A stretch of DNA of 64,000 bases from Novosphingobium sp. Chol11. GTDB taxonomy: Bacteria > Pseudomonadota > Alphaproteobacteria > Sphingomonadales > Sphingomonadaceae. Location of the stretch: the NCBI GenBank assembly GCA_945906105.1, contig CAMDQO010000001.1:62001-126000 (forward strand). The letters are read 5' to 3'. Shown here in pieces: positions 13,330-43,848 of this stretch (positions are counted from its first letter, which is position 1; each line of letters opens with the position of its first letter). The notes beneath the pieces are model-generated. The model was not told where the DNA came from. It saw nothing but the letters and a program-made list of their open reading frames with translations, and ran no database searches. The translations under genes were made by a program, and so were the position numbers.

Positions 13330-13393
13330 TGCGACAAATGGCGACAATAAAGGCATGATACGGCATACGTTTGCGACAGCATGACCCTATATG
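13330..13393 (+). promoter_or_regulatory. Direct-repeat operator and -10 box upstream of the EF-hand gene
   Basis: TGCGACAAATGGCGACA (13330-13346) holds two GCGACA half-sites one helical turn (10 bp) apart, the arrangement bound by OmpR-type response regulators. A third TTTGCGACA is at 13370-13378. A TATATG -10 candidate lies at 13388-13393, 41 nt beyond the motif, with no good -35, as in activator-dependent promoters. A 15/17 identical motif lies upstream of the candidate small RNA near 43.1 kb. Binding by the neighbouring response regulator is inferred. Confidence 0.5.
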
Positions 13394-13484
13394 GACTATC
13401 AGGAAGCCGTGTGGTGCTGTCGTCCCCTCCCCCTCCTTGATTGCGCCATGCGGCTTTCCCGAAATTTCTCTGAAGGGATCGAAC

Positions 13485-14138
13485 ATGAAAAAGCTGACCC
13501 TAACTATCTCGGCAGTTGCACTGGCGCTGGCCGGAACTGCCTATGCCGCGCAGGAAGGCGGCATGCGTATGAAGGATCCGATGGGTGACAAGACCGTTAC
13601 CCGCGCCGAGGCGGAAGCCAAGGCCAAGGAGCATTTCGCGATGATGGACGTCAATAGCGACGGCAAGCTCGACAAGGCCGATCACGCAGCCCGCCAGCTT
13701 GAGCATTTCAAGAAAATGGATACCGATCGCAATGGTTCGATCTCGCAAGCGGAATTTCTTGCCGCCCATCAGCGCGGACCCGGTAACGAGCACTCTGGTA
13801 TGGGTGGCCCTGACGGCAAGATGGCCATGCCGCATGAGCGTGGTGCCCATGAAGGCGGGCCAAGGGGCGCAGGCGGCAAGCACGGCAAACGCGGCATGGA
13901 CGGCGGTCACAAGATGATGATGCTCCACATGGCCGATGCCAACAAGGATGGCGTGATCACCCGCGATGAAATGGTTGGCGGTATGCTCAAGCATTTCGAC
14001 ATGACCGACACCAACAAGGACGGCAAGGTCACACCAGAAGAGCGCCGCGCCGCCATGGCCAAGATGCACGAGCACATGAAAAGCATGAAGGGTGGCATGA
14101 AGCATGGCATGAACCCGCCTCCGCCCCCGGCCAACTGA
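13485..14138 (+). CDS. Exported EF-hand calcium-binding protein with His/Met-rich linker
   Basis: The ATG at 13485 is chosen over an upstream in-frame ATG (13371) because GAAGGGA precedes it and it begins a clear signal peptide (MKKLTLTISAVALALAGTAYA). The 217-residue protein has four EF-hand loops: DVNSDGKLDKAD (55-66), DTDRNGSISQAE (79-90), DANKDGVITRDE (151-162) and DTNKDGKVTPEE (175-186). The pairs are separated by a Gly/His/Met-rich stretch (about 97-150), and the C-terminus is Met/Lys/His-rich followed by PPPPP. It probably binds Ca2+ in the periplasm; the linker could bind a soft metal. A two-component system follows. Confidence 0.88.
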   Translation: MKKLTLTISAVALALAGTAYAAQEGGMRMKDPMGDKTVTRAEAEAKAKEHFAMMDVNSDGKLDKADHAARQLEHFKKMDTDRNGSISQAEFLAAHQRGPGNEHSGMGGPDGKMAMPHERGAHEGGPRGAGGKHGKRGMDGGHKMMMLHMADANKDGVITRDEMVGGMLKHFDMTDTNKDGKVTPEERRAAMAKMHEHMKSMKGGMKHGMNPPPPPAN

Positions 14139-14186
14139 TCAGCCAACGGGATTTTATCATGACGCCAGATTATAGATTCACGCGTC

Positions 14187-14921
14187 ATGCCTGATACCGC
14201 GCCGATCAATCTGCTGCTTGTCGATGATGAAGCAGTCCTGCGCGAACCCCTGGCCGACTATCTCTCGGCTCAGGGGTTCGTCGTCAGGCAAGCCGCCTCT
14301 GCCGCCGAGGCGCGCAGCCTGTTGCGCGAAGCGCGCTCTGATCTGGTGCTGCTCGACATCATGATGCCGGGTGAAGATGGCCTGTCGTTTTGCCGCCACC
14401 TGATCGAAACCCAGTCCATTCCCACAATCCTGCTCACAGCGCGCGGCGAAGCGACGGACCGCATTGTTGGACTGGAGATTGGCGCTGATGATTATGTCGT
14501 CAAACCATTTGAGCCGCGCGAACTGGTTGCCCGTATCCGCTCGGTTTTGCGCCGTGCGGGCCGGGGCGCGACAGATGTGGCCGAGAACGAGGTTTTCCTG
14601 TTTGAAGGCTGGACACTCGATCCGCTGAAGCGTCGTCTGATCGATGCCGAAGGCGCGATTGTGGCAATTTCATCGGCTGAATTTCGCTTGCTCGTGGCCT
14701 TCCTCGAGCATCCACGACAGGTGCTCGATCGGGATCGGCTGCTCGATATGGTTCAGGGGCGTGAGGCGCACCTGTTTGATCGTGCGGTAGATAATCAGGT
14801 CAGCCGTCTGCGCCGCAAGATCGAGGTCGACAGCCGCAGTCCGCAACTGATCCAAACTGTCTGGGGCGGCGGCTATATGCTCACCACCGATGTCCTTCGC
14901 CAACCGGCTGATGCCAGCTGA
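14187..14921 (+). CDS. OmpR-family response regulator
   Basis: DNA-binding response regulator of 244 residues. The receiver domain has the acidic pair in LLVDDEA, the phospho-acceptor in LVLLDIMMPGEDG (about D57), the conserved Thr in ILLTARGE and Lys in DYVVKPFEPRELVARI. The C-terminal winged helix ends RAVDNQVSRLRRKIE...TVWGGGYML. Its stop overlaps the histidine-kinase start (TGATG). It may bind the GCGACA direct repeats upstream of the EF-hand gene and of a distant small-RNA candidate (inference). Confidence 0.94.
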   Translation: MPDTAPINLLLVDDEAVLREPLADYLSAQGFVVRQAASAAEARSLLREARSDLVLLDIMMPGEDGLSFCRHLIETQSIPTILLTARGEATDRIVGLEIGADDYVVKPFEPRELVARIRSVLRRAGRGATDVAENEVFLFEGWTLDPLKRRLIDAEGAIVAISSAEFRLLVAFLEHPRQVLDRDRLLDMVQGREAHLFDRAVDNQVSRLRRKIEVDSRSPQLIQTVWGGGYMLTTDVLRQPADAS

Positions 14922-16390
14922 TGGCAAGCGCAAAGGGCAACTTTCTAAAGAGCCTGTGGCCAAGCAGCCTCAAAGGGCAGGTCTTGCTGACCATAGCTTT
15001 GTCATTGCTGGCGGCGCAGGCGTTCAGTGCGGTGCTGCTCTATCACGCCCAGCATGATCGGCGCGAGGCGGCGCTGGTTCACGCCGTTGCCATGCGCCTT
15101 TTTACCGCGACGAGAGAGGCACCGCCTGAGCGTTTAGCCACTGAGTCAGACGGGCCGATTGGTAATAACGGCCATCTCTCAACACAGCGCCCGCGGCCCG
15201 AATTGTTTGGCGGCCCGCGAACTTTCCGCGTTGAGCACCTCGCCGCTTCGCCGCTTCGTGCCGGGGAGGCGCGCAGCAGTGATGCCGAGAATGACCTGCG
15301 CTCTATCCTCAATGATCAGGACGTCGCGGTTGAAGATGTCGTCGTTATTCGCCGGGCCGTGGTGGATGATCCGCAAACCCTACGCCGCCTGACCCGCCGC
15401 AGCCAGTTGCTTGGCCAGCCCCACAGCGCCGTGGCGGAAAGTGTGATTGTTGCCGGTGTCCGCAAGAAGAACTCAGCTGAATGGCTGGTCGTTCGGACTC
15501 CGGTTCCACCCTATGAGCGGGCACTGATTCTCTCGTTGATCGGGCAGACGATCCTGATTTACGCGGTGATGGTCGGAGTGGTCGCCCTGTTGCTGCGGCG
15601 CATCACCCGCCCGCTTGCCGCGCTGACGACCCGGCTTGAACGGTTTGCCGATACGCGCGATCCCGGCGATCCGCTGGAACCGCAAGGTCCGGGTGACATT
15701 CGCCGCCTGATCACCGCGCATAATGCCATGGAGGGGCGCATTGCTGCCTTGCTCGATGAAAAGGACGTGATGCTTGGTGCGATCGGCCATGATCTCAAAA
15801 CACCGCTCGCGGCGCTGCGGGTGCGGATCGAATCGGTGGCGGACGAAGAGCAGCGCGGCCGCATGGCACGGACGATTGAAGACATTACCCGTTCGCTCGA
15901 CGATATTCTCAGCCTTGCCCGAGTCGGAAGGCCGACCGATCTGCGCGAACCCAACGAGTTGTCAGCACTCATAGCCTCGGTGGTCGAGGAATATGAGGAT
16001 ATGGGCGATCCGGTGGAGCTGGGTGCGACCCAGCGCATCGTGCTTTCGCTGCGCCCGACCTGGATGCGGCGCGCTTTGCGCAACCTGATCAGCAATGCCC
16101 TGCGTTATGGCCAGCGCGCCAGTGTGACACTCACCCGCGAAGGCGAGGTTGCGGTGATAACCATCAGCGACGAGGGACCGGGCATTGCCGATGATCAGAT
16201 CGCCCGGATGCTCGAACCTTTCACGCGCGGCGAACCATCACGCAACAGCGAAACGGGCGGTGCCGGGCTTGGCCTGACACTGGCCCGCGCCATCGCCGAG
16301 CAGCACGGCGGAACGCTGACGCTATCCAACCTCAAAGACGCTCAAGGCCATGTCACCGGGCTGGCCGCCGTATTGCGGCTGCCCCTCTGA
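14921..16390 (+). CDS. Membrane sensor histidine kinase, partner of the OmpR-type regulator
   Basis: A 489-residue EnvZ/CpxA-type kinase. An N-terminal transmembrane segment (about 20-42), a periplasmic region of roughly 165 residues and a second membrane segment (about 205-225) lead into HAMP, then the H-box IGHDLKTPLAAL (His near 289). The ATP-binding domain shows NLISNALRYG (N), DEGPGI (G1) and GGAGLGLTLARAI (G2). Translationally coupled to the response regulator by a 1-nt overlap. The ligand is unknown; the nearby secreted EF-hand protein hints at a periplasmic divalent-metal or envelope cue. Confidence 0.93.
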   Translation: MASAKGNFLKSLWPSSLKGQVLLTIALSLLAAQAFSAVLLYHAQHDRREAALVHAVAMRLFTATREAPPERLATESDGPIGNNGHLSTQRPRPELFGGPRTFRVEHLAASPLRAGEARSSDAENDLRSILNDQDVAVEDVVVIRRAVVDDPQTLRRLTRRSQLLGQPHSAVAESVIVAGVRKKNSAEWLVVRTPVPPYERALILSLIGQTILIYAVMVGVVALLLRRITRPLAALTTRLERFADTRDPGDPLEPQGPGDIRRLITAHNAMEGRIAALLDEKDVMLGAIGHDLKTPLAALRVRIESVADEEQRGRMARTIEDITRSLDDILSLARVGRPTDLREPNELSALIASVVEEYEDMGDPVELGATQRIVLSLRPTWMRRALRNLISNALRYGQRASVTLTREGEVAVITISDEGPGIADDQIARMLEPFTRGEPSRNSETGGAGLGLTLARAIAEQHGGTLTLSNLKDAQGHVTGLAAVLRLPL

Positions 16391-40976: not shown

Positions 40977-42032
40977 TCAAAGCAAATGCCCCGAGCGATC
41001 CCGTTTGGTATCAAGATAGCGGGCGTTGTGCGGGTTGGGTGGTAACTGGTGCGGCACGCGCTCGGCTATCGTCACGCCTTCGGCTTCCAGTGCAGAGACC
41101 TTCGACGGATTATTAGTCATCAAGCGCACGGAACGCACCCCCAGCAAGTCGAGCATCCGCGCCGCCACCGGAAAATCGCGCGCTTCGGTGGGTAGGCCAA
41201 GCCGGTTGTTGGCATCGACTGTATCGAAGCCCTGATCCTGCAATTCATAGGCGCGCAGCTTGTTGATCAGGCCGATGCCGCGGCCTTCTTGACGCAGATA
41301 GAGCAGCACACCCCAGCCGGTGCCCTCGCGGGCTTCTGCCGCCATGGCGTGAAGCGCCGCATCGAGCTGCGGGCCGCAATCGCATTTGAGGCTGCCGAGG
41401 ATGTCGCCGGTCAGGCATTCCGAATGAAGCCGCACCAGCGGCGCGCGATCACCATTTTGAGCGCCGATCACCAGCGCCACGTGCTCACGCAGGTCGTCGG
41501 CAGAACGGAAGGCCACGATTTCCGCCTCTTCGCTGGCAGCAATTGGCAGCCGCGCGCGGGCGGCAATGGCGAGGTGGCGGGTGTCTTTCCATTCGGCGAG
41601 ATCGCCGCTGGAGATGGCCTGTGCCTCGTTGCAAGAGGTGGGATCGATGAGGAAGGCGGGGAGGATGCCGGCGAGGCGCGCCAGTTCCATCGCCGTCTGC
41701 GCAGCCTGCGGGTGATCGAGCGGTTCGGCCAGAAACGGCCCCTTGAAAGGGTTGGCGAGATCAAGCGCCGGATCGGCGATGATCCGCGCTGCTCCAAGGG
41801 TAAACGGCTCACCCGCGCGAATCAGCGCCGGTGCCTGCGGCTCGGCGGCCTCGCGCTGGTTGGCCAGCTTGAGCGTGACCGCGCGGGCCGAGGAAATCAG
41901 CAGGCGCTGGGATGTGGCACCCGGTGCAAAGCCGGTTTCCGCAGGTAGCAGCCGCAGCACGCCATCGACCTCTATCGGCCAACCGTGGCGCAGCGCATCA
42001 AGCGCCAGCGCGACACGGCGGGTCGCCCTCAA
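40977..42032 (-). CDS. ribA: GTP cyclohydrolase II with degenerate N-terminal DHBP-synthase-like domain
   Basis: First enzyme of riboflavin synthesis, opening GTP. The C-terminal half (from about residue 170) is GTP cyclohydrolase II: zinc cysteines in VRLHSECLTGDILGSLKCDCG (near 205, 216, 218), the RQEGRGIGLINKLRAYELQDQG loop and the RVPHQ-like end (AERVPHQLPPNPHN). The N-terminal half (1-165) follows the layout of 3,4-dihydroxybutanone-phosphate synthase (RRVALALDALRHGWPIEVDG) but lacks its acidic DDEDRE-type active-site cluster, so it is probably inactive. It overlaps xth by 4 nt. Confidence 0.9.
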   Translation of the reverse strand: MRATRRVALALDALRHGWPIEVDGVLRLLPAETGFAPGATSQRLLISSARAVTLKLANQREAAEPQAPALIRAGEPFTLGAARIIADPALDLANPFKGPFLAEPLDHPQAAQTAMELARLAGILPAFLIDPTSCNEAQAISSGDLAEWKDTRHLAIAARARLPIAASEEAEIVAFRSADDLREHVALVIGAQNGDRAPLVRLHSECLTGDILGSLKCDCGPQLDAALHAMAAEAREGTGWGVLLYLRQEGRGIGLINKLRAYELQDQGFDTVDANNRLGLPTEARDFPVAARMLDLLGVRSVRLMTNNPSKVSALEAEGVTIAERVPHQLPPNPHNARYLDTKRDRSGHLL

Positions 42033-42820
42033 AGAGCAAACTCCGTGATCAGTGGGACATGATCGGACGGCTGCTCCCAGCGCCGGGTTTCCTCAACGAT
42101 CCGGTGGCTGGTGGACTGCGCCGCCAGTTCAGGCGAAGCCCACATATGGTCCAGCCGCCGACCGCGATCTTTTTCCTGCCAATAAGTGCGGTATGACCAC
42201 CAGGTCCAGTTCCGCTCGGGCGCGGGAATGTGCTTGCGGCCAAGATCGACCCAGCCATGGGCATCGGCAAAGCGAGTAAGAGTCTCCACCTCAAGCGGGG
42301 TGTGGCTGACGACTTTCAGCAGCGCCTTGTGATCGTAAACATCGCATTCGAGCGGGGCTATATTGAAATCACCGACGATCAGTGTCGGCCTCTCGACCTT
42401 CTCTGCCCAGCGGGTCATGCGCTCGAGGAAATCGAGTTTCTGGCCGAATTTGGCATTGGCTTCGCGATCAGGAATGTCGCCGCCTGCCGGGATATAGACA
42501 TTCTCGAGGATCATGCCATTTCCGGGTCCGAGCAGCTCAACGCCGACATGGCGCGCCTCGCCATTGTCCTGCCAATCATGGCGGCTGACCTCGCGCAGCG
42601 GAATGCGGCTGATCGTGGCGACGCCGTGATAGCCCTTCTGGCCGTGGACAGCGTGATGGGTATAGCCGAGCGCGTTGAACGCATCATAGGGGAACAGTTC
42701 GGCAACCGTCTTGATTTCCTGCAAGCAGAGCACGTCGGGTTCTTGCTCGATGAGGAAGCGCCCCACCTGCTGCGCGCGCAGACGGACGGAATTGATGTTC
42801 CAGGTGGCGATTTTGACCAT
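42029..42820 (-). CDS. xth: Exodeoxyribonuclease III (AP endonuclease)
   Basis: Base-excision-repair enzyme of the exonuclease III/APE1 family. The start MVKIATWNINSVRLR at 42820 is preferred over one 10 codons upstream. Sites: the catalytic Glu in CLQEIKT, the GDFNIAP Asp/Asn, DRGRRLDHMWAS and the SDHVPLI histidine near the C-terminus. 263 residues, standard length. It precedes and overlaps ribA by 4 nt. Confidence 0.93.
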   Translation of the reverse strand: MVKIATWNINSVRLRAQQVGRFLIEQEPDVLCLQEIKTVAELFPYDAFNALGYTHHAVHGQKGYHGVATISRIPLREVSRHDWQDNGEARHVGVELLGPGNGMILENVYIPAGGDIPDREANAKFGQKLDFLERMTRWAEKVERPTLIVGDFNIAPLECDVYDHKALLKVVSHTPLEVETLTRFADAHGWVDLGRKHIPAPERNWTWWSYRTYWQEKDRGRRLDHMWASPELAAQSTSHRIVEETRRWEQPSDHVPLITEFAL

Positions 42821-42946
42821 GGGAGAGGCTTTAGAGCGCTTTTCAGGCACCGCAACACCCGCCGTTGTATTTGGTCAGGGCCACACCGTGTGTTTGCGGC
42901 TGGAATTGGCTTAGCCCGGTATGTGCCAATCCAGACCCATCCCAAC

Positions 42947-43069
42947 AAAAAACCCCCGCTCCGGGGGCATTGGAGCGAGGGTTCCTTTGTGCGTTCGTCA
43001 CGCTTGACGAGGCGGTGGTTTGTTGAAGCAAGGGCAACAGGGGGGAAACCCGCTTCAAGCCGCGTCGTC
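42947..43069 (-). ncRNA. Candidate small RNA with own promoter and terminator
   Basis: In the 353-bp gap between xth and lolA the minus strand carries a promoter (see 43076-43104) and, about 120 nt on, an intrinsic terminator. The terminator has a 6-bp stem (CCCCCG/CGGGGG, 42953-42967), a 3-nt loop and six T residues (42952-42947). Between them are hairpins GCTTCAA/TTGAAGC (43053-43059 with 43023-43029) and CGTCA/TGACG (42996-43009). No reading frame of note fits. Alternative pairing of GGAGCG with CGCTCC is possible near the terminator. Leader of another gene is unlikely since none follows before xth, 127 bp further on. Confidence 0.6.
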
Positions 43070-43075
43070 CAGCTC

Positions 43076-43140
43076 TATGTAGGGTGTTCTGACTTGCTGT
43101 TCAATGAACGGAAGCAACAGGTGTGTCGCAGTTTGTCGCA
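43076..43140 (-). promoter_or_regulatory. Promoter and direct-repeat activator site of the candidate small RNA
   Basis: On the minus strand: TTGAAC (43104-43099), exactly 17 nt, TACATA (43081-43076). Upstream lies TGCGACAAACTGCGACA (43140-43124), two GCGACA half-sites 10 bp apart. The distance from motif to -10 is 42 nt; the 15/17 identical motif before the EF-hand gene has 41 nt. The same orientation and spacing argue for a shared OmpR-type activator. Confidence 0.6.
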
Positions 43141-43173
43141 GGAAATGGGCAGTCTGGGGCGAGGCGTTGCTGA

Positions 43174-43848
43174 CTATCGACGAGCCGGACGGCGCGGATC
43201 GTTGTACTTGAACATCGCATCAGACACCGCGACTCCATAGCGCTGGCTGGAAAGCTGGATCGAGGTCTGCTTCTTCTGCGAATCGAGCGAAGTCCAGCTG
43301 TTGAGTTCAAGCCCACCGGGCGCGCTGGCTTTCGGTTGGAAGCGGAAAGTCATCACGCCATATTCGGGATGCGATTTGTCGCGCACTTCGATGGCGATGC
43401 CGGCGGGGCCGCTGCTGATCAGACGCCCGTATTTCTTCACATCGCGCGCGGGATCGAGCAGCGCGCCCAGCGGGCTGTTCTTGATCGGCCAGCGCTGCAC
43501 CTGCTTGGCTTCATAGTCGATGAAGGTCATCGCCGCGCCATCAGAGACAATCAGCATCGGCACGCCGGGCTGATACTGAAAGCGGATGCGGCCCGGACGC
43601 TTCAAAGTCAGGGTGCCCGAAACGCGGCTGCCGTTGCGATCGGTCTGGGTGAAGGCCGCCTGCATCGTTGAGATGCCGCGCAGGGCTGCCAGCGCGCGAT
43701 CAAGGTCTGCGGATGGGGCCGAGGCCTGTGCTGGGGCCTGAGCCGGAGTTTGCGCAGATAGAGGCGCGATCAGTGCCATTGGTGCAGAAACGGCAAACGC
43801 CGCGACAAGCGCGGCGCTGCTACGAAGGATGAGTGCGGTTCGGTTCAT
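43174..43848 (-). CDS. lolA: Outer-membrane lipoprotein carrier LolA-family protein
   Basis: Periplasmic chaperone carrying lipoproteins from LolCDE to the outer membrane. The 224-residue protein has a signal peptide (MNRTALILRSSAALVAAFAVSAPMALIA). The mature part has the LolA pattern: LRGISTMQAAFTQTDRNGSRVSGTLTLKRPGRIRFQY, then MLIVSDGAAMTFIDYEAKQVQ and an SWTSLDSQKKQTSIQLSS region. A 62-bp gap with no clear motif separates it from the rpmG region upstream. Confidence 0.88.
   Translation of the reverse strand: MNRTALILRSSAALVAAFAVSAPMALIAPLSAQTPAQAPAQASAPSADLDRALAALRGISTMQAAFTQTDRNGSRVSGTLTLKRPGRIRFQYQPGVPMLIVSDGAAMTFIDYEAKQVQRWPIKNSPLGALLDPARDVKKYGRLISSGPAGIAIEVRDKSHPEYGVMTFRFQPKASAPGGLELNSWTSLDSQKKQTSIQLSSQRYGVAVSDAMFKYNDPRRPARR

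Follow-up and report, generated by a model that had tools for sequence, protein, structure and literature searches.

The closest described counterpart of the RNA reported here is RusT (CCNA_R0199) of Caulobacter crescentus, a 118-nt small RNA that is encoded between lolA and xth and has its own transcription start in this gap (PMC11005374). According to the accessible part of that article, RusT folds into four stem-loops, is bound by Hfq via stem-loop 3 and is controlled by NtrX, with iron chelation and zinc as inducers; it represses TonB receptors and OmpW, partly by pairing of the second loop, its target-binding loop, with mRNAs. Its authors reported homologs in Caulobacteraceae, and the main text, as far as accessible, makes no mention of Sphingo, Novosphingobium or Zymomonas (PMC11005374). 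A second RNA of C. crescentus, ChvR, offers a likeness in that it is controlled by an envelope two-component system, through the response regulator, and represses a TonB receptor; it differs in its length of 84 nt, its locus (CCNA_00157/recF), its restriction to C. crescentus and its independence of Hfq (accessible part of PMC6237742).

Here we report a conserved, structured and terminated predicted RNA with its own conserved promoter elements, located between lolA and xth in a 64,000-nt stretch of a Novosphingobium genome (the window, to which all positions refer). A sequence-only reading of the window had placed a small-RNA candidate in this gap and had made no link to RusT. The RNA family is absent from Rfam 15 as searched: no family reached the gathering score anywhere in the window, and the sole match up to an E value of 5 within 42800-43260 was asR3 (E 1.4), over helix P3 and the terminator. 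The sphingomonad version of the RNA is undescribed in the open-access literature as far as accessible; the search took in few subscription papers, and not the one with the first Zymomonas list. The accessible parts of two Zymomonas papers (PMC6970203, PMC7064620) contain no mention of lolA or exodeoxyribonuclease, and the letters of the RNA's loop were not found in that of PMC7064620.

The locus and its promoter

The gap between lolA, which ends at 43174, and the ATG of xth at 42820 measures 353 bp. The locus comprises the following features:

42029..42820, minus strand: xth (exonuclease III), the usual downstream neighbour (Pfam PF03372)
42947..43070, minus strand: predicted small RNA of about 124 nt (basis: 30-locus alignment, fold z-score, occurrence in the family)
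43076..43081, minus strand: -10 hexamer TACATA inside the conserved CCTANA (27/30)
43099..43104, minus strand: TTGAAC, the -35 hexamer proposed earlier, not conserved (3/30)
43104..43109, minus strand: conserved promoter element GTTCAT (GTTCA in 29/30 genus stretches)
43122..43141, minus strand: direct repeat CTGCGACAAACTGCGACACA, probable response-regulator site
43174..43848, minus strand: lolA, the upstream neighbour (Pfam PF03548)

The motif counts refer to 30 aligned genus loci; motifs were matched anywhere in stretches of about 250 nt, the register being given by the alignment, and TTGAAC was counted where TA followed at the right distance. The 5' end of the RNA was set 6 nt after the -10 hexamer and is an inferred position. 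On the strand of the RNA, lolA lies upstream at 29 of the 30 loci (the exception, L025, stops at a contig edge) and xth downstream at 28 (L002 likewise stops at a contig edge).

The promoter had been read as TTGAAC-17-TACATA. Both hexamers are present on the minus strand (43104-43099 and 43081-43076) with the 17-nt spacer between them, and relatives have kept the -10, the terminator and the upstream repeat, but not the -35 hexamer. The repeat, described earlier as activator-type, is GCGACA-N4-GCGACA at 43139-43124 (minus strand), upstream of the RNA promoter, and is exact in 22/30 aligned genus stretches. Family-wide, TTCA[TC] was found upstream of 79/88 RNAs, with a shuffled mean of 12.

Within 42500-43600, a single-sequence promoter scan returned nothing above the sigma-70 threshold, and a terminator scan returned three terminator-like sites against 1.0 ± 1.1 expected; such single-sequence scans are weak alone. 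It is for its conservation (53/59 genus genomes, 144/149 family genomes) that we hold the candidate RNA gene to be real. The claim that the gene contains no reading frame needs qualification: mechanical open reading frames of 71 aa (minus strand) and 336 aa (plus strand) overlap it, but the features conserved in the 30-locus alignment are hairpins and loops, and its indels are not multiples of three. The 336-aa frame (window 42230-43240), antisense to both the RNA and xth, has no Pfam match and is probably spurious.

Predicted structure

The predicted RNA has the following elements:

43006..43069, minus strand: helix P1 (43069-43060 with 43015-43006, one 1x1 mismatch)
43024..43057, minus strand: helix P2 (43057-43049 with 43034-43024)
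43035..43048, minus strand: C-rich apical loop UUUCCCCCCUGUUG, candidate target-binding seed (exact in 27/30)
42991..43003, minus strand: helix P3 GCGUgacgaACGC (identical in 30/30)
42947..42985, minus strand: terminator hairpin P4 and U tract (14-pair stem, then six T)
42963..42971, minus strand: second C-rich loop AAUGCCCCC, inside the terminator (TGCCCCCGG in 30/30)

In this layout P1 encloses P2 and its C-rich loop and is followed by P3 and then by the terminator. The fold is better than those of shuffled sequences (z -4.5; 0/200 shuffles as good). GCGUGACGAACGC and UGCCCCCGG are present in 30/30 aligned loci, and CCCCCTGTTG of the apical loop recurs in 75/88 family members. The two further hairpins described earlier within about 120 nt are borne out: changes on both sides of a pair, found in 5/9 pairs of P1 and 3/8 counted pairs of P2 in the alignment of 30 sequences (A1), speak for both helices, and P3 is invariant, so that covariation is no test of P3 in these 30 loci. 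The terminator and its six T (42952-42947) are likewise present and conserved; its stem, given earlier as 6 bp, had been understated and comprises 14 pairs (42985-42972 with 42962-42949), of which 4 vary on both sides in A1 and 10 in the family-wide alignment A4.

In A1 as a whole, 93.9% of cells pair and 12/35 pairs vary on both sides; covariation was 0.202 against 0.098 in shuffled alignments, slid controls did not exceed 0.085, and further pair types showed no excess (28 against 27.5 in shuffles). A4, an alignment fitted to the model from 88 loci chosen for diversity (87 distinct rows), had 17/27 pairs varying on both sides and a covariation of 0.294 against 0.137 shuffled. These compensatory changes support the predicted folds.

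Distribution among relatives

A DNA search (E <= 0.001) recovered the region in 53/59 Novosphingobium genomes, the own genome included, with identities of 70-87% when the own genome is excluded; together with the fold this sustains the earlier small-RNA candidate. A covariance-model search of relatives, which the sequence-only reading had proposed as a check, was made with model R1, built from the 30 aligned genus loci. It detected the RNA in 144/149 genomes and 94/96 genera of the Sphingomonadaceae in the broad sense (own genome counted; no match in G063, G113, G126, G155 and G157). Novosphingobium, Sphingopyxis, Erythrobacter, Blastomonas and others carry it.

Named genome contigs, scanned for the P3 core, yielded at least 118 stretches, and these 118 were all scored with R1. 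Among the stretches listed, 72/80 and 35/38 matched R1, and these carried the labels of sphingomonads and their relatives, or broader ones (Proteobacteria, Pseudomonadota, Alphaproteobacteria). The 11 R1-negative ones among the stretches listed were all non-alphaproteobacterial and serve as a negative control (Planctomycetota, Citricoccus, Actinomadura, Dehalococcoidia, Curtobacterium, Halorubrum twice, Thiodictyon, Gordonia, Streptomyces, Paenibacillus). Antisense terminator matches to R1 in the P3-core stretches reached 28.8 bits.

Across 289 genomes of the class, R1 matched 13, four of them in the family and nine outside it at 24-34 bits. Two of the three outside-family matches that were aligned (L264, L266) lie mainly on the terminator; the third (L265) aligns over the 5' part and P3, with the terminator broken and far from the xth of that genome. 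From these searches the RNA appears, by sequence, to be confined to the sphingomonad family. Two 2.1-Mb genomes of one genus, apparently Zymomonas (L275, L276), carry near position 2000 diverged RNA copies with A+T-rich flanks; they score 25.6 and 34.3 bits, the former below the antisense noise.

Comparison with RusT

Caulobacteraceae genomes were picked through the ChvG family also matching Caulobacter vibrioides. All 40 contained xth, and 30 were taken as loci. An RNA-like core was common to 23/30 lolA-xth gaps, and these 23 were aligned; the others had no lolA within reach (L449, L461, L477) or no core motif (L459, L463, L465, L474). Its consensus is CCGUGCCGGAnnCnAUCCCCUCCCGGCGGCGGCnUGAGAGAC, and we take the core as RusT by place, size and its 13-nt C-rich loop, set against the published description only.

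The sphingomonad RNA shares with RusT the lolA-RNA-xth order and strand, a length of about 120 nt and an own promoter and intrinsic terminator, both predicted in the present case, and in the Caulobacteraceae RNA the apical loop is likewise large and C-rich, and a third region resembles P3. P3 is a possible counterpart of RusT stem-loop 3, the Hfq site in Caulobacter; at L279 and L280 it aligns with the Caulobacteraceae model. The two RNAs differ in their loops, UUUCCCCCCUGUUG here and AUCCCCUCCC in Caulobacteraceae; the C-rich loop lies at a place similar to that of the RusT target-binding loop but with other letters. They also differ in the additional C-rich loop of the sphingomonad terminator and in the promoter, which contains TTGAC in 17/22 Caulobacteraceae loci.

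On Caulobacteraceae DNA, the best three of ten R1 matches (27 sources; 21.4, 21.4 and 18.3 bits) and the best three of eight matches of the family model R3 (30 sources; 27.6, 27.6 and 20.5 bits) lie on the RNA in sense, at the same three loci (L469 and L475 are near-identical). Conversely, the best two of 15 matches of the Caulobacteraceae model on 50 sphingomonad loci are this RNA (19.6 and 17.5 bits); they span the third hairpin and the terminator, pairing GGCAUGAGAGACGA with GUAUGCGUGACGA. The third-best match (L023) is off the RNA; in all, 9/15 overlap the RNA, many by the terminator only, and 6/15 lie elsewhere. As nine outside-family genomes score 24-34 bits with R1, cross-match scores of 18-28 bits alone prove nothing; it is synteny together with faint similarity that makes orthology with RusT likely, though not proven.

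A survey of the class found 151 genomes with xth; the 2.6 kb before xth were taken in 60, of which 19 had lolA on the same strand. Three gaps measured at most 321 nt, and among these three a RusT-like RNA occurs solely in L436. The L436/L479 lineage is near but outside Caulobacteraceae; in L436 the gap that holds the RusT-like RNA is 321 nt long, and the RNA of this lineage resembles the sphingomonad one in that its terminator-like hairpin bears a C-rich loop. Another lineage (L389) has a C-rich-loop terminator at 2466-2503, in a lolA-xth gap of 533 nt, matched by the Caulobacteraceae model at 26.2 bits over the terminator only; it may mark another RNA at the locus.

Candidate regulator

The exact repeat GCGACA-N4-GCGACA has two copies in the 3.0-Mb genome, one at the RNA promoter and one before a proposed operon in the window:

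13331..13346, plus strand: sole other exact GCGACA-N4-GCGACA in the genome (pattern search)
13485..14138, plus strand: exported EF-hand protein, first gene of the proposed operon (Pfam EF-hand; signal-like N terminus by eye)
14187..14921, plus strand: OmpR-type response regulator, candidate activator (Response_reg and Trans_reg_C)
14921..16390, plus strand: EnvZ-like sensor histidine kinase (HAMP, HisKA, HATPase_c)

With up to two mismatches allowed, the window holds 12 copies of the repeat against 11.9 expected, and the two perfect ones are those of the RNA and the operon. A regulator ortholog is present in 40/41 genus genomes (own included); it has the EF-hand and kinase genes as neighbours in the 30 loci examined, 15 of which have the exact repeat. 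With a matrix derived from the 30 RNA promoters, the best pre-operon site scored above all 40 simple shuffles in 28/30 loci, own included (the failures were L094 and L099). The shared repeat at the two promoters makes the OmpR-type regulator a candidate activator of the RNA in Novosphingobium; for the control of RusT by NtrYX, the repeat suggests a different regulator in its place here. Because the exact repeat is rare family-wide (8/88 RNA promoters, in which TTCA[TC] persists), this assignment is limited to Novosphingobium; in other members of the family the RNA promoter may answer to another regulator.

The operon region (13331-16390) is found across the genus, with a promoter pattern of two GCGACA, CGGCATAA, GCGCGACA and CCTAGA. 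Its EF-hand protein resembles lanmodulin, scoring 62.6 bits where the cut-off is 135. Over 59 genus genomes the exact repeat had 147 matches and the reversed pattern 46, so that part of the 147 is due to chance. Some of 27 other exact-repeat loci lie before exported-protein genes and many lie inside open frames; in other Novosphingobium, the repeat stands just before exported-protein genes in L037 and L058, and in L044 and L052 near position 1500. Repeats in such places hint at an envelope regulon.

Regulators known from Caulobacter were also considered, with sites taken from the accessible parts of PMC9731502 and PMC8963506. In the 3 kb around the RNA, the ChvI pattern TTGC-N3-GCAA is matched once with one mismatch, where chance predicts 2.1 matches; this site lies between the GCGACA repeat and the -10. 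The UzcR pattern CATTAC-N6-TTAA was not found around the RNA with up to two mismatches; neither regulator was retained as the activator. An SOS box was rejected too, one GTTC half only being visible by eye (site from the accessible part of PMC6237742).

Candidate targets

A comparison of 19 of the 24 own TonB receptors with 28 window genes showed the receptors to be no better matched by the RNA (p 0.64 and 0.39); five receptors were dropped because they lacked an ATG that is preceded by a Shine-Dalgarno-like site and by 60 nt or more of sequence. Three receptors (L330, L336, L343) match the RNA well close to their presumed start codons and are leads only. In 31 genomes, CAACAGGGG before ATG was found 131 times against 14 for the reversed pattern, but was no commoner than a scrambled pattern (129, with 19 for its own control). 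The scramble being as frequent, the apparent enrichment is a ribosome-site effect only.

Discussion

This predicted gene is best read as an independent small RNA that starts from a promoter of its own and ends at an intrinsic terminator. Lying between lolA and xth on their strand, the RNA might instead be a leader or attenuator of xth, its terminator serving for attenuation, or arise by processing from the 3' end of the lolA transcript. We consider this highly improbable: xth lies 31 to 505 nt away in 27 loci and 1035 nt away in L020, and in L017 it is not found within 1.5 kb. That the RNA is intact in both of the latter makes a leader of xth unlikely; moreover, the RNA has conserved promoter elements of its own, and so does RusT have its own transcription start in this gap, according to the accessible part of its description (PMC11005374). 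There is also little to recommend a decoy that titrates a protein, such as an RNA-binding regulator, via the invariant P3 and the C-rich loops and pairs with no mRNA. The negative target tests would fit it, as would the constancy of P3 in sequence beyond what pairing demands (30/30), but the same pattern is explained by RusT, in which stem-loop 3 is the Hfq site and the loop pairs with mRNAs (PMC11005374, accessible part).

More serious, although still unlikely, is the idea that an unrelated trans-acting RNA with C-rich loops has come to occupy the same lolA-xth gap and shares no ancestor with RusT. Compared with the Caulobacteraceae RNA, the loop sequences, the promoter and the C-rich loop of the terminator are different, the cross-matches are few and weak, and R1 revealed no convincing intermediate among the 289 class genomes. 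Against this stand the same gap, strand, size and C-rich loop, a similar third hairpin, and the fact that, whichever model is run against the other group, the best cross-matches are sense matches to the gene. We regard the RNA as probably a trans-acting regulatory RNA of the Sphingomonadaceae in the broad sense, and a diverged ortholog of Caulobacter RusT with different loops and a different promoter.

By analogy with RusT, such a regulator would bind Hfq through P3, and its C-rich loop may pair with G-rich ribosome-binding regions; on envelope or metal disturbance it would lower the translation of outer-membrane or other envelope proteins. In Novosphingobium, the shared repeat suggests that the OmpR-type regulator of the operon at 13485-16390 would switch the RNA on and may also control its own operon. 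More speculatively, and with considerable doubt, an old and rarely lost family-wide RNA could link an EF-hand sensor operon of the calcium or lanthanide type to envelope remodelling, one regulator driving both the operon and a RusT-like RNA with two C-rich seeds, one of them oddly placed in the terminator loop.

If the RNA is indeed a diverged ortholog of RusT, the latter would be one branch of an old alphaproteobacterial RNA beside lolA that extends beyond Caulobacteraceae. Sphingomonads, in which few small RNAs have been characterised, would then have a conserved candidate envelope riboregulator with a named candidate regulator.
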